A stretch of DNA of 64,000 nucleotides, taken from positions 697,183 through 761,182 of the forward strand of contig NZ_WTYB01000001.1 of the NCBI RefSeq assembly GCF_009828055.1. The letters are read 5' to 3'. The DNA comes from Erythrobacter ramosus (GTDB lineage: Bacteria; Pseudomonadota; Alphaproteobacteria; Sphingomonadales; Sphingomonadaceae). Below, one piece after another: positions 38,470-42,763 of this stretch. The notes beneath the pieces were generated by a model. That model searched no databases. It saw only the letters and a program-made list of their open reading frames with translations, and was not told the DNA's origin. Position 1 is the stretch's first letter, and every line of letters begins with the position of its first letter. Both the position numbers and the translations under genes were made by a program.

Positions 38470-39246
38470 ATGACCCGCCAACACACCCTTACCGCTGCGC
38501 TGGGCTGTCTTGCCATGCTCGGCGCGGCTGCGCTTGTGTGGCCGCAGAGCGCGCCCGCTGTGGCCGGGGCCAAGGCTGATGCGCCCACTATCGCTGCTGC
38601 GGGCGAGCCGGTGCTGCTCGAGCTATTCACCAGTCAGGGCTGTTCGTCCTGCCCCCCGGCGGACCGGTTAGCGGAGAAGCTGGCGACCCATCCCAATCTG
38701 GTCGTGATCGCCCGGCCGGTGACCTATTGGGACCGGCTCGGCTGGAAGGACACCTTGGCGCGCGAGGATAACACGACGCTGCAACAGGATTACGCCCGCC
38801 GCGGGCTGGCCGGGCGCAACGGGGTCTATACCCCGCAGCTGGTGGTGGACGGCAGCTTCGGCGCGGTCGGATCGCGGTCCGAAGATATCGCCGCCGGGAT
38901 CAAGCGCTACGGCAGCGCAGGCGATGCCGCGATCCGGGTCGCGAAGCGCGACGCGGGCGGCTTCGCGGTCAGCCTCTCCGGCACGGGGGAGGGTAAAGGC
39001 GAGCTGGTGCTGGTCGCCGTGACCCGCAAGGTGACGGTCGGGATCGGCAGCGGCGAGAATGGCGGGCGCAAGGTCGGCTACACCAACGTCCTGCGCGCCG
39101 AACGCAAGATCGCCAATTGGCAGGGCGGCACAGCGAGTGTCGCGATTCGTGCCGATCAGCTCAAGGTGGCGGGGGCCGATGCCTATGCGCTGGTGCTGCG
39201 CGCACCGGGCGGCGGCAATGTGTTCGCGGCGCGCTGGCTACCCTAA
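38470..39246 (+). CDS. DUF1223 thioredoxin-like secreted protein
   Basis: 258 aa. N-terminal signal (residues 1-32), then a thioredoxin-like domain starting LLELFTSQGCSSCPPADRL with a CxxC motif, and a beta-rich C-terminal part. DUF1223 proteins are of unknown function; the CxxC suggests periplasmic redox or copper binding. GAGGATGA precedes ATG 38470. Its stop overlaps the convergent TauE gene. Confidence 0.85.
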   Translation: MTRQHTLTAALGCLAMLGAAALVWPQSAPAVAGAKADAPTIAAAGEPVLLELFTSQGCSSCPPADRLAEKLATHPNLVVIARPVTYWDRLGWKDTLAREDNTTLQQDYARRGLAGRNGVYTPQLVVDGSFGAVGSRSEDIAAGIKRYGSAGDAAIRVAKRDAGGFAVSLSGTGEGKGELVLVAVTRKVTVGIGSGENGGRKVGYTNVLRAERKIANWQGGTASVAIRADQLKVAGADAYALVLRAPGGGNVFAARWLP

Positions 39247-39986
39247 ATCAGGCGCACAAATGCCGCCGCCGCTGCCCCGCCGAGGATCAGGCCCACTGTC
39301 ACTCGCCACAGCGAATCGCTGATCCGCCCAGATACCCGCGCGCCCAGCCGATTGCCCAGAATGATCATGGGTAGCATCAGCAGCGCGAACAGCAGCAATT
39401 CCGGTCGCAGGATGCCGAGCCAGGTTGCGCTGGCCAGACCCGCGCAGGCCGCGATGGTGAAGATCAGCTGCATCGATGCCTTGATGGTCGGACGCGGCAG
39501 GTCTCGCCCGGCATAGTAAGGCACCACCGGCGGCCCGGGCATCCCGGCATAGCCTGTCATCAGCCCGCTCAGCACGCCGACGCCGCCCGTCACCAGGCGC
39601 CCCGGCACGGCCGCACCGCGCTTCGGCAGCAGGATCGCGACAAAGGCGCTGAGAGCGATCAGCGCGATGGCCAGCCGCGCGACATCCTTGCCGGTCAACG
39701 ACAGGGCATACAGCCCGAGCGGCGTGGTCAGCACCACGATGCCGCCGATCGCCCACGCGGTCGGCTCGGCATCGCGGACAAGGCTGCGGATCTCGGTCGC
39801 GCCGATCATCAACGACAGCGCGTTGGCGAGCACCACCGCCTCGACCGGAGGGAGCGCCAACGCCAGCACCGGCACCAGCAGGATCGCCATGCCGAACCCG
39901 GTGAGGCCGCGCACGAAGGCAGACCCCAGCGCCGCTGCCAGCGCAACGGCGATTTGCAGCGCGGTAAAGCCCCCGAAAATCTCCAC
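39243..39986 (-). CDS. TauE/SafE family sulfite exporter-like permease
   Basis: 247 aa with seven to eight membrane helices. The family repeat is visible (FVRGLTGFGMAIL and GVLSGLMTGYAGMPGPP). Exports small organic or inorganic sulfur anions in known members. Start GTG 39986, four bases after the DUF305 stop; no better start is in frame. Third gene of thrS-DUF305-TauE. Confidence 0.85.
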   Translation of the reverse strand: MEIFGGFTALQIAVALAAALGSAFVRGLTGFGMAILLVPVLALALPPVEAVVLANALSLMIGATEIRSLVRDAEPTAWAIGGIVVLTTPLGLYALSLTGKDVARLAIALIALSAFVAILLPKRGAAVPGRLVTGGVGVLSGLMTGYAGMPGPPVVPYYAGRDLPRPTIKASMQLIFTIAACAGLASATWLGILRPELLLFALLMLPMIILGNRLGARVSGRISDSLWRVTVGLILGGAAAAAFVRLI

Positions 39987-39990
39987 GCGG

Positions 39991-40398
39991 CTACTGGACG
40001 CCGCGCGCCTTGAGCCACGCCTGCATCTCGGCAATCTCGGCCTTCTGCGCGGCGATCACCCGGGCGGCGAGATCGCGGGCCTGTTCGTCCTTGGCGTATT
40101 TCAGCGCCACTTCCGACATCTCGACCGCGCCCTGATGGTGGGCCAGCATCCCCTGCATGAAAGCGACATCCGCATCCGTCGGAATGTCGGCCATCCCGGC
40201 GTGCATCCTGTCGTTGACCGCCTTGTAAGCGGCCTGCGCCTCGGTCAGTTCCGACTTAGTCTCGCCGCCCATGTCGTGGCCCGAATGGTCCATCGCCGAA
40301 TGGTCGACGGCAGCGGGCTTGGCGGTGGCGTCGGTGTCCGCGCCGCAAGCGGCTAGCAGGACAAGCGCCGCGGGCGCGAGGATGACAATCGCTTTCAT
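39991..40398 (-). CDS. DUF305 lipoprotein
   Basis: 135 aa. Lipobox LLAAC near residue 18 predicts a lipid-anchored periplasmic protein. The DUF305 domain has the HHQGAVEMSEVA core and the ferritin-like helices; His/Met-rich stretch DHSAMDHSGHDMGG resembles metal-binding tails. Copper handling is suspected for this family. ATG 40398 is preceded by GGAGAATTG; its start lies 2 bp from the thrS stop. Confidence 0.85.
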   Translation of the reverse strand: MKAIVILAPAALVLLAACGADTDATAKPAAVDHSAMDHSGHDMGGETKSELTEAQAAYKAVNDRMHAGMADIPTDADVAFMQGMLAHHQGAVEMSEVALKYAKDEQARDLAARVIAAQKAEIAEMQAWLKARGVQ

Positions 40399-40400
40399 AG

Positions 40401-42404
40401 TCAATTCTCCGACTTGAGATCCGGCGGTGTGCCTTCGCCCTTCAGCATCGCGATCGCTTCGGCGAGGCTCATCACCTTCTGGTGCTCCGCTCCCAACGTG
40501 CGGACGGCGACGGTGCCTTCCTCAGCCTCGCGCTTGCCGACCACCAGGAGGTGCGGGACCTTCGCCAGCGAGTGTTCGCGCACCTTGTAGTTGATCTTCT
40601 CGTTGCGGGTGTCGGTTTCGACCCGGATGCCCGCCGCTTTCAGCTGCGCCTCGACTTCGTGGGCATAGCCATCCGCGTCCGAAACGATGGTCGCGACCAC
40701 TGCCTGCACCGGCGCGAGCCATGCAGGCAGACGTCCTGCGAAATGCTCGATCAGGATGCCGATGAAGCGCTCATACGAACCGAAGATCGCGCGGTGGAGC
40801 ATCACCGGGCGGTGCTTTTCGCCGTCCTCGCCGATGTAGTTGGCGTCCAAGCGTTCAGGCAGCACGCGGTCCGACTGGATCGTGCCGACCTGCCAGGTCC
40901 GCCCGATCGCGTCGGTCAGGTGCCATTCGAGCTTGGGAGCATAGAACGCGCCTTCGCCGGGAAGTTCCTCCCATTCAAGGCCGTTGGCGGTGAGCGCATC
41001 GCGCAATTCCTGCTCGGCCTTGTCCCAATCCGCCTCGCTGCCGAAGCGCTTTTCGGGGCGTAGCGCGAGCTTGATGTCATAGGTGAAACCGAAGTCGCGA
41101 TAGACCGAATCGGCCAGCGCGAGGAAGCTCTGCACTTCGGCCACGACCTGCGCCTCGGTGCAGAAGATATGCGCATCATCCTGCGTGAACTGGCGCACGC
41201 GCATCAGCCCGTGCAGCGCGCCGTGGGGTTCGTTGCGGTGGCAGCAGCCCATCTCGCCCAGCCGGATCGGCAGATCGCGGTACGAGGTGATGCCCTGCTT
41301 GAACACCATCACGTGTGCGGGGCAGTTCATCGGCTTGATCGCGAGCCATTCGGCATCGTCCGCAACCTTGGGCGAGGCAGCACCGCTGTCCTCGTCCACT
41401 TCGGGCACCATGTCGGGCACCGCGAACATGTTCTGCGCGTACTTCCCCCAGTGGCCCGACTGGGTCCATTGGCGCACGTCCATCAGCTGCGGGGTCTTGA
41501 TCTCGCGGTAGCCAGAACCGTCCATCTTGCGACGCATATAGGCTTCAAGTTCGCGCCAGATGCGGTAGCCCTTGGGGTGCCAGAAGACGCTTCCGTGCGC
41601 TTCTTCCTGCAAGTGGAACAGGTCCATCTCGCGCCCCAGCTTGCGGTGGTCGCGCTTGGCGGCTTCTTCGAGGCGCGTGAGGTGGGCGTTCAGCTGCTTC
41701 TTGTTGAGCCAGCCGGTGCCGTAGATGCGGGTGAGCTGCGCATTGTTCTGATCGCCGCGCCAGTAAGCGCCCGCAACGCGCATCAGCTTGAAGGCATCGG
41801 GATCGAGCTTGCCGGTGGAGGGGAGGTGCGGCCCGCGGCACATGTCGAGCCAGTCGGAGCCTGACCAATAGACCGTCAGCTCCTCGCCCTCGGGCAGTTC
41901 CTTGGCCCATTCCGCCTTGAAGGTTTCGCCCTCGCCGGCCCACTTGGCGATGAGGTCCTCGCGGCTCCACACCTCGCGGCGCAACGGCTTGTCGGCGCGG
42001 ATGATGCGGCGCATTTCCTCCTCGATGGCGGGAAGATCGTCCATGCTGAACGGCTCGCGGCTCTCCGGCGCCTTCACGTCGTAATAGAAGCCATCGTCCG
42101 TCGAAGGGCCGAAGGTGATCTGCGTGCCGGGGAACAGCGCCTGCACCGCCTCGGCCAGCACGTGGGCATAATCGTGGCGGGCGAGTTCGAGCGCATCGGC
42201 CTCGTCCCGCGCGGTGACCAGCGCCAGCTCGGCGTCGCCATCGAAGGGGCGGGTGAGATCGCGCAACTCGCCATCGACACGCGCCGCCAGCGCCGCCTTG
42301 GCAAGGCCGGGGCCGATGGCTGCGGCGATATCGGCAGGGGTCGATCCCGCAGGCACTTCGCGCACCGATCCATCGGGCAGGCTGATCTTGAGCAGTTCGG
42401 TCAT
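40401..42404 (-). CDS. thrS: Threonyl-tRNA synthetase
   Basis: 667 aa class II synthetase. In order: TGS domain (1-62), the HxxxH editing domain with [12 protein letters not shown], the catalytic core (about 265-550) with motif 2 [14 protein letters not shown] and zinc Cys in [10 protein letters not shown], and the anticodon-binding domain at the C terminus. A threonine-rich leader ORF and stem structures lie upstream (42534-42608), suggesting attenuation by Thr-tRNA charging. First gene of an operon with DUF305 and TauE. Confidence 0.96.
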
Positions 42405-42499
42405 CGTCGCAGTTCCGTCTCGTTTGGGCGCGCCTTAGGGCAAAGGCAGGCGCACCGGAAGAGCGGTGTTGAGCGATTACCGGTCAGGGAAGGACACCG

Positions 42500-42571
42500 C
42501 GCCGCCCCCAAACCGGGCGGCGGGCTGCCGGACTTAAGCCGCGCGCCGCCGCCCCCGGATGGTAGTCCGGG
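42500..42571 (-). promoter_or_regulatory. Candidate transcription attenuator of thrS
   Basis: Four mutually exclusive segments, read leftward: 1 = 42571-42566 (CCCGGA), 2 = 42559-42546 (TCCGGG running into GGGCGGCGG), 3 = 42523-42515 (CCGCCGCCC), 4 = 42507-42500 (GGGCGGCG). 1:2 and 3:4 can form together, or 2:3 instead (9 GC pairs). A ribosome held in the Thr codons would cover segment 1 and favour 2:3. The 3:4 stem has no U-tract, so control could also be Rho-dependent. Confidence 0.6.
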
Positions 42572-42608
42572 TCGTCGTGGTGCGGGTTGTGGTCAACAGC
42601 ATGGCCAT
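42534..42608 (-). CDS. Threonine-rich leader peptide of thrS
   Basis: 24 codons from ATG 42608 to TAA 42536-42534, 130 bp before thrS. After MAMLL come nine threonines in eleven codons, interrupted by two Arg, using ACC, ACA, ACG and ACT; then Ile, basic residues and Ala-Ala. GGAGG at 42627-42623 is 14 bp upstream, rather distant. The composition is what leader peptides of amino-acid-responsive operons look like (compare thrL). Confidence 0.7.
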   Translation of the reverse strand: MAMLLTTTRTTTTRTTIRGRRRAA

Positions 42609-42703
42609 GGCGGCAAGATTAGCCTCCAACAGCGAAAAGTCACGCGCAAGTTGATGAAGCACACCTTGGAGCGGGCTTTCGGACCCGGGAATGGAAAGCT
42701 TCC

Positions 42704-42737
42704 TTGACAGGAGCGGCGACTCAAATGTAAAGTCGCC
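42704..42737 (+). promoter_or_regulatory. Promoter with dyad for the XRE/membrane-protein operon
   Basis: TTGACA at 42704-42709 and a weak TGTAAA about 16 bp on. A perfect inverted repeat GGCGACT (42715-42721) with AGTCGCC (42731-42737) surrounds the -10. The XRE regulator encoded in the operon could bind here and repress itself (inference). Confidence 0.5.
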
Positions 42738-42763
42738 TTGTCATTATGCAAAAGGAGCTTTCC

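Follow-up and report, generated by a model that had tools for sequence, protein, structure and literature searches.

In the thrABC, trp and pheST attenuators of Escherichia coli, the regulatory codons are located in segment 1 of the leader RNA, the leader stop codon lies between segments 2 and 3, and alternative 2:3 and 3:4 pairings can form. E. coli thrS is controlled in another way: threonyl-tRNA synthetase binds to the thrS operator and represses translation, and no leader peptide is known to be involved. The locus described here lies in a window of 64,000 nucleotides from Erythrobacter ramosus (contig NZ_WTYB01000001.1); positions are those of the window, and the leader, its RNA segments, the promoter-like sequences and thrS are all on its (-) strand. 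It resembles the three E. coli attenuators in having the regulatory codons in segment 1, the stop codon between segments 2 and 3 and alternative 2:3 and 3:4 pairings, and differs from them in its target (thrS), the absence of a U-tract, two extra helices (4:X and 4′:5) and the lack of an Rfam match. With the E. coli thrS operator it would share control of thrS at the RNA level, which there takes the form of protein-binding translational repression.

Leaders of aminoacyl-tRNA synthetase genes have been proposed for pheST in gammaproteobacteria and for trpS and leuS in Streptomyces (PMC1262725), and for alaS and thrS in Streptomyces lividans (PMC8079986); autoregulation of E. coli thrS is also mentioned (PMC2965389). 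An earlier note on this DNA, made from the sequence alone, knew of no leader attenuation for thrS, a statement that has to be amended for S. lividans thrL; the literature searched contained no account of a Thr leader in front of thrS in Sphingomonadales. Like the present element, thrL is a Thr leader proposed for thrS with no U-rich stretch; its transcript is leaderless, as is predicted here. Unlike it, thrL has 18 amino acids, two Thr residues and one hairpin, and was described in one species; phylum and sequence are different, and the passages of the source drawn on here describe no covariation (PMC8079986). The uORFC-8-2 motif before cysS in Rhodobacterales, for which ribosome-mediated attenuation has been proposed, is likewise an alphaproteobacterial leader ORF with codons for the synthetase's own amino acid in a structured RNA. 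It differs in having two Cys codons and a terminal U run (an intrinsic terminator), in order, gene and sequence, and in that the excerpts drawn on mention no helix of the 4:X type (PMC8632094). Before trpS of Caulobacter, also an alphaproteobacterial synthetase gene though a different one, a small leader coding sequence was seen by ribosome profiling, with attenuation only suggested (PMC4117421). The trpL leader of Sinorhizobium meliloti is leaderless, its AUG being the 5′ end of the transcript; the locus here is similar in this respect, with a start that is predicted only, and is also alphaproteobacterial, but trpL has trpE as its target and gives rise to a known attenuator RNA, rnTrpL (PMC10117765). 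Finally, leader ORFs without clear terminators are described for the cys leaders of Mycobacterium, where Rho-dependent termination was suggested, and for the actinobacterial LEU element, where a pseudoknot was suggested; they concern other genes and another phylum, and are likened to our element by description (PMC1262725). No helix of the 4:X type appears in the portions of these sources that describe synthetase leaders.

As the element would work like a classical attenuator but lacks the U-tract of an intrinsic terminator (see below), we treat it as a variant of that type. We consider it likely that the conserved Thr leader ORF and the covarying alternative stems before thrS constitute a ribosome-mediated attenuator. 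If this is correct, the element would be, as far as we could find, the first Thr leader for thrS with broad conservation and covariation behind it; it was seen in 34 of the 91 genera sampled from a single family. It would also suggest that searches relying on U-tracts miss attenuators in GC-rich alphaproteobacteria, and it raises the question of how ribosome stalling is communicated to RNA polymerase without an intrinsic terminator.

The leader ORF had been noticed as a 24-codon reading frame rich in Thr about 130 bp before thrS, and is found at 42534..42608, encoding MAMLLTTTRTTTTRTTIRGRRRAA followed by a stop codon. Nine of the 11 codons from codon 6 to codon 16 specify Thr, and the stop codon is 129 nt from the thrS ATG at 42404. 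The downstream gene (40401..42404, 667 amino acids) has the domains TGS, tRNA_SAD, tRNA-synt_2b and HGTP_anticodon, the expected set of TGS, SAD, class II core and anticodon-binding domains for a threonyl-tRNA synthetase. A run of nine Thr codons in 11 was produced in none of 2000 dinucleotide shuffles of the 450 nt upstream of thrS. The folding energy of 42405-42640 by itself was ordinary (single-sequence folding, z -0.86), and the case therefore rests on comparison. A search of the whole window against Rfam at gathering score returned tRNA only, and no leader or T-box family; at 42380-42750 three matches fell far below their cut-offs, none of them to an attenuator.

To compare relatives, upstream regions of thrS were collected from named genomes, the same genus and the order, giving 273 loci with 257 distinct upstreams. 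The named-genome loci were the best 80 of 588 candidates, seven of them outside Sphingomonadales; the genus sample comprised 100 genomes of the window's genus, 96 of which had a thrS match; and for the order sample, 80 of the listed places, all of one family, that were then without a locus were added. The 273 loci include duplicates, namely the window itself (L001) and genomes present in two collections or taken twice, and non-redundant sets of 146, 123 and 58 sequences, the last including the window, were used for tests. A leader was scored where at least four Thr codons fell within 12 and the stop codon lay 100-170 nt before thrS; L087 and L095 were admitted by hand despite the distance rule. 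This filter misses L121, L126 and L186, which are found by the covariance model R1 described below, and the shortened form in L003 and L118. Scored as without a leader were also L265 and L268, in which the register is probably wrong, and L026, for which 101 nt of upstream sequence was available.

By this filter a Thr leader precedes thrS at 164 of 273 loci and in 151 of the 257 distinct upstreams. The frequency was 86/95 loci in the window's genus (duplicates counted), 22/24 in genus g6, 7/11 in g15, 6/6 in g27 and 0/6 in g5; among the named loci, 20 of 80 had the leader and 60 did not. ORFs with at least six Thr in 12 codons were present in 148 of 273 real upstreams versus 1 of 819 shuffles, so the Thr-rich ORF exceeds chance both locally and across loci. 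The leaders have a mean of 7.2 Thr codons, made up of ACC (496), ACT (178), ACG (163) and ACA (54). Because the third codon position varies within the conserved Thr run, it is the Thr residue that is kept, and not merely the nucleotides. The peptides also end similarly by eye, roughly M..x(T)5-8..RGR..A and stop, and the stop codon is 116-169 nt upstream of thrS in 122 of 123 non-redundant leader loci. In L121 and L126 the Thr run and stems are retained, and the reading frame continues beyond the usual stop.

The ACC run could in principle be a by-product of GC-richness or of a Val-rich ORF on the antisense strand. Such an ORF is indeed open opposite the leader, and at least six Val in 12 antisense codons occur at 118 of 273 loci; this richness is explained by ACC itself, which reads as GGT, a Val codon, on the opposite strand. 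Since the promoter-like sequence, the start, the RGR-type end and the distance to thrS are all conserved on the sense strand, we regard chance or antisense coding as very improbable.

A promoter-like sequence, P1, is positioned immediately before the leader. In the window it consists of a -35-like GTGACT (42638..42643) and a -10-like TAATCT (42616..42621) separated by a 16-bp spacer, with a discriminator of 7 nt before the leader ATG. The pattern TTGAC-N17-TAtnnn, including the TTGAC-like -35 element, was found upstream of the leader at 122 of 123 non-redundant loci; the spacer is 17 bp at 113 loci, and the -10 hexamer is 6-7 nt from the ATG in 103/122. Among 686 control ATGs taken from the opposite strand, 48 scored as well, in a comparison in which the leader scan was free to choose among in-frame starts and the control scan was not. 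The sequence GGAGG (42627-42623), which the earlier note had taken for a Shine-Dalgarno sequence with a weak 14-bp spacing, is probably not one: it sits between the -35-like and -10-like hexamers, and as part of a promoter spacer its distance from the ATG is no weak point. In Zymomonas mobilis, a member of the same order, the consensus mapped for sigma-A reads TTGNNN-17-TANNNN, followed by a discriminator of 6 bp (PMC7566282). P1 fits this consensus, which predicts a transcription start at the leader AUG or one base before it. The leader transcript thus likely begins at the AUG, with leaderless translation.

The four RNA segments first proposed from the single sequence are present, with coordinates right to within a base or so, and the Thr codons lie in segment 1 in the geometry of a classical attenuator, as had been suggested. 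Segment 1 (CCCGG, 42567..42571), located where the Thr codons end, has a possible partner at 42558-42554 in segment 2 (CCGGGGGCGGCGG, 42546..42558), which can alternatively pair with segment 3 (CCCGCCGCCC, 42515..42524). Segment 4 (GGGCGGCG, 42500..42507) pairs with segment 3 or, together with the loop (within 42514-42501), with a further segment, X (42482..42495). Segment 4′ (GCGGTGT, 42494..42500) pairs with segment 5 (ACACCGC, 42463..42469), which is followed by TCTTCC and no U-tract. A segment 6 (42453..42457) could pair weakly with 42468-42464 (69% of cells paired).

Folding of the trimmed 123-sequence alignment with RNAalifold yielded almost nothing, and the named helices were therefore counted cell by cell on a 58-sequence alignment (A1). 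L054, L058, L087, L088, L095 and L269 were omitted from A1 before the redundancy filter, L054 and L058 being judged by eye, and sequences similar to segment 1 (CCCGG or CCGGG) were seen by eye in rows of A1. Helix 3:4 was paired in 92.5% of cells, and 3:4 and 4′:5 together in 89.3%; in some rows of A1 segment 5 is shifted out of register, so that 4′:5 is undercounted. Double-change cells in these two helices numbered 54, against 22.8 in shuffled alignments, and the covariation score was reached in 0 of 500 shuffles; when the partners were slid, pairing fell to 33-57%. Columns 71-103 of 3:4, for example, hold 32 GC, 13 AU and 10 GU pairs with a change on both sides in 13 of 58 sequences, and columns 113-157 of 4′:5 hold 26 CG and 20 UA pairs.

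Helix 4:X, in which the loop and segment 4 pair with the downstream CCUCCCGAAA, emerged when every pair of columns in the 123-sequence alignment was ranked: pairs of this then unnamed helix took ranks 1 and 4 (columns 99-122 and 96-125), and the pair 90-103 of 3:4 came lower. Pairs outside any helix were ranked as well, an effect that shared ancestry by itself can produce. In A1, 79.4% of 4:X cells were paired, with 38 double-change cells against 14.4 shuffled and a score reached in 0/500 shuffles. A near-constant mismatch is present at columns 103-122 (54/58), and sliding the partners gave 38-67% pairing, the 67% at a shift of one column. Helix 2:3 was paired in 86-92% of cells and is mostly invariant, and 2:3 and 5:6 together were only slightly above shuffles. 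The expectation that relatives would show covarying alternative stems was thus borne out for 3:4, and only weakly for the mostly invariant 2:3; on the evidence of the alignment, 4:X and 4′:5 are further covarying helices that had not been foreseen. An automatic hairpin search was also tried as a swap test and set aside, as it often mistook 4:X, a strong hairpin, for 3:4, so that per-helix averages were mixed; in this search the own partner beat a swapped one in 84/123 sequences for 2:3, 88/123 for loop plus 4:X and only 60/123 for 4′:5.

Helices 3:4 and 4:X are mutually exclusive, segment 4 being common to both. Helix 4′:5 is compatible with 3:4, and with 4:X it could form only as a pseudoknot, for which loop lengths of 1-4, 0-4 and 9-17 nt would be possible. 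When the window sequence was folded with the Thr codons covered, 2:3 and 4:X formed; with segment 2 covered, 3:4 formed. In masked folding of the 58 sequences, 3:4 reached an average probability of 0.65 for a ribosome on the stop codon and 0.30 for a stalled one; the corresponding values were 0.10 and 0.28 for 4:X, and 0 and 0.42 for 2:3. The direction of the predicted shift fits attenuation logic, and the swap is partial: in the stalled state, 16 of the 58 ensembles still give 3:4 a probability greater than 0.5.

The ORF, its conservation, the P1-like sequence and helices 3:4, 4:X and 4′:5 can all be read from the compared sequences, and suggest the following course of events. Transcription would start at the leader AUG, and translation would be leaderless. 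A ribosome reading through to the stop codon would cover segment 2, allowing 3:4 to form beside 4′:5; a ribosome stalled on the Thr codons would cover segment 1, so that 2:3 could form and segment 4 would be freed for 4:X. The least certain steps come last: the 3:4 state would end transcription ahead of thrS with no U-tract involved, most probably by way of Rho acting on the linker, and the 2:3/4:X state would let transcription into thrS. Low levels of charged Thr-tRNA would in this way lead to stalling on the Thr codons and to more threonyl-tRNA synthetase.

Transcription could be stopped in more than one way. In a fully classical attenuator, 3:4, or 4′:5 with its UCUUC tail, would be an intrinsic terminator and 2:3 the antiterminator, with no part for Rho. 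The geometry is classical, 3:4 is GC-rich and covarying, and a UCUUC-like sequence follows 4′:5, with an average of 2.8 T in 8 nt. However, a U-tract of at least five T in 8 nt occurs after 3:4 in 0/58 aligned sequences, as the earlier note had observed for the window, after 4:X in 2/58 and after 4′:5 in 3/58, and mapped intrinsic terminators of Zymomonas resemble those of E. coli (PMC7566282). A U-tract after a hairpin was thereby rejected, the simple model with 3:4 as an intrinsic terminator is not supported, and we consider the classical mechanism less likely than not. The linker between 4′ and 5, which contains X, is C-rich and G-poor (C 0.38, G 0.16; C exceeds G in 57/58 sequences), a composition that suits Rho and makes it our best guess. 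Predicted linker openness barely changes between the states (0.45 vs 0.43; more open without stalling in 72 of 121 loci), so that the step in which 4:X would screen this linker from Rho is conjectural. In its full form, the proposal of a family-wide sensor of threonine charging, in which a leaderless leader gates thrS without an intrinsic terminator through coupled 2:3/3:4 and 4:X/3:4 swaps and a possible H-type pseudoknot, with Rho as the gate, is again one that we put forward tentatively.

Alternatively, the leader stems could set access to the thrS start, or ribosomes could reinitiate at thrS, and leader genes acting on translation have been proposed elsewhere (PMC4833913; PMC1262725). The thrS start region is predicted to be equally open in the two states (0.49 in both, 121 loci), which gives no support to control of translation initiation, and a leader stop codon at the distance from thrS found in 122/123 loci is far for reinitiation. 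Translational control thus appears unlikely.

The distribution of the element was examined with R1, a covariance model built with the 3:4 and 4′:5 pairs supplied, whose E-values are rough. In the E. ramosus genome R1 found one strong copy, at the window site (E 9e-18; next 0.15). Of 199 genomes sampled from the family, 71 had a match, one each, and these belong to 34 of the 91 genera in the sample. In 70 of the 71 genomes the match precedes thrS and has the same orientation, and in the remaining genome the two are on different contigs; the end of the element is at most 60 nt from thrS in 66/71, and 553-569 nt away on the same strand in four. At the L186 locus, a 3′-5′ exonuclease-like gene (820-1500; Rv2179c-like, under the Pfam cut-off) lies between leader and thrS. 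A class-wide search with strict filters gave four matches in 289 genomes, three of them within the family; the sole match outside is weak (E 0.006) and lies in what is apparently coding sequence.

R1 was also run on 99 of the 109 loci without a leader. At L125, L134, L135, L136 and L143, all in the window's genus, the leader and segments 1-4 are absent and a good part of the block between segment 5 and thrS is kept; R1 finds these remnants weakly (E 0.02-0.13), and L125 and L135 retain a P1-like sequence by eye. L152 has no trace of the element. In L003 (1409-1469) and L118, a short Thr run and segment 2 stay and segments 3 to X are lost, and the ORF of this shortened element ends about 50 nt upstream of thrS. 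Segments 1-4 thus seem mostly to have been lost together, and these close relatives, two of which retain a P1-like sequence, are ready-made comparisons.

That the thrS-proximal block is kept where segments 1-4 are lost suggests a role of its own, and it seems to have one, perhaps as a promoter, P2. The pattern TTCCGG-N17-TAAGGC (42432..42460) is present at 96 of 123 leader loci and on the other strand at 3 of them. Between segment 6 and the start of thrS there is a conserved stretch at 42450-42425 (in relatives CTTGTGCCATGGCGCGCC); in some relatives it can pair as CCTGC-TTGTG-GCAGG or CCTT-TGTCCT-AAGG, and it may be a promoter, a hairpin or both. P2 was rejected as a standard sigma-70 promoter, the TTG..TA form of the Zymomonas consensus being found in just 2/123 loci. 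Putative P2 transcription, beginning near 42425, may drive thrS past the attenuator. A start of thrS transcription downstream of 42500, which the earlier note had named as counting against its proposal, is thus possible, and if P2 is strong the attenuator would tune part of thrS expression only. In a more radical version thrS is transcribed mainly from P2, and the P1 leader transcript is minor or acts in trans as a small RNA or peptide, for which Sinorhizobium trpL provides a precedent (PMC10117765). The strand bias of the pattern and the five loci that keep much of the block without segments 1-4 speak for this reading. Against it, the pattern was chosen after looking, it occurs at 13 of 97 loci without a leader, and the link between element and thrS holds in 70 of 71 genomes, so we think it rather unlikely and prefer attenuation in cis.

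The genes downstream of thrS had been thought to be coupled to threonine charging with it. In the window (39243-40404) an ORF for a DUF305 lipoprotein overlaps the end of thrS and is itself overlapped by an ORF for a TauE-like permease. The arrangement did not prove general, DUF305 being found at 17 and TauE at 61 of 131 long thrS loci. Elsewhere in the same genome, no obvious Trp leader precedes trpE. Before leuA (L281, C3), a 16-codon ORF, MTRNGLTLLRLMRPWA and stop, contains four Leu codons and stops 87 nt short of the predicted start of leuA; a TA hexamer lies 6 nt ahead of the ATG of this ORF, and by eye there is no U-tract. Judged from its sequence, this ORF is perhaps a Leu leader in the style of the Thr leader.
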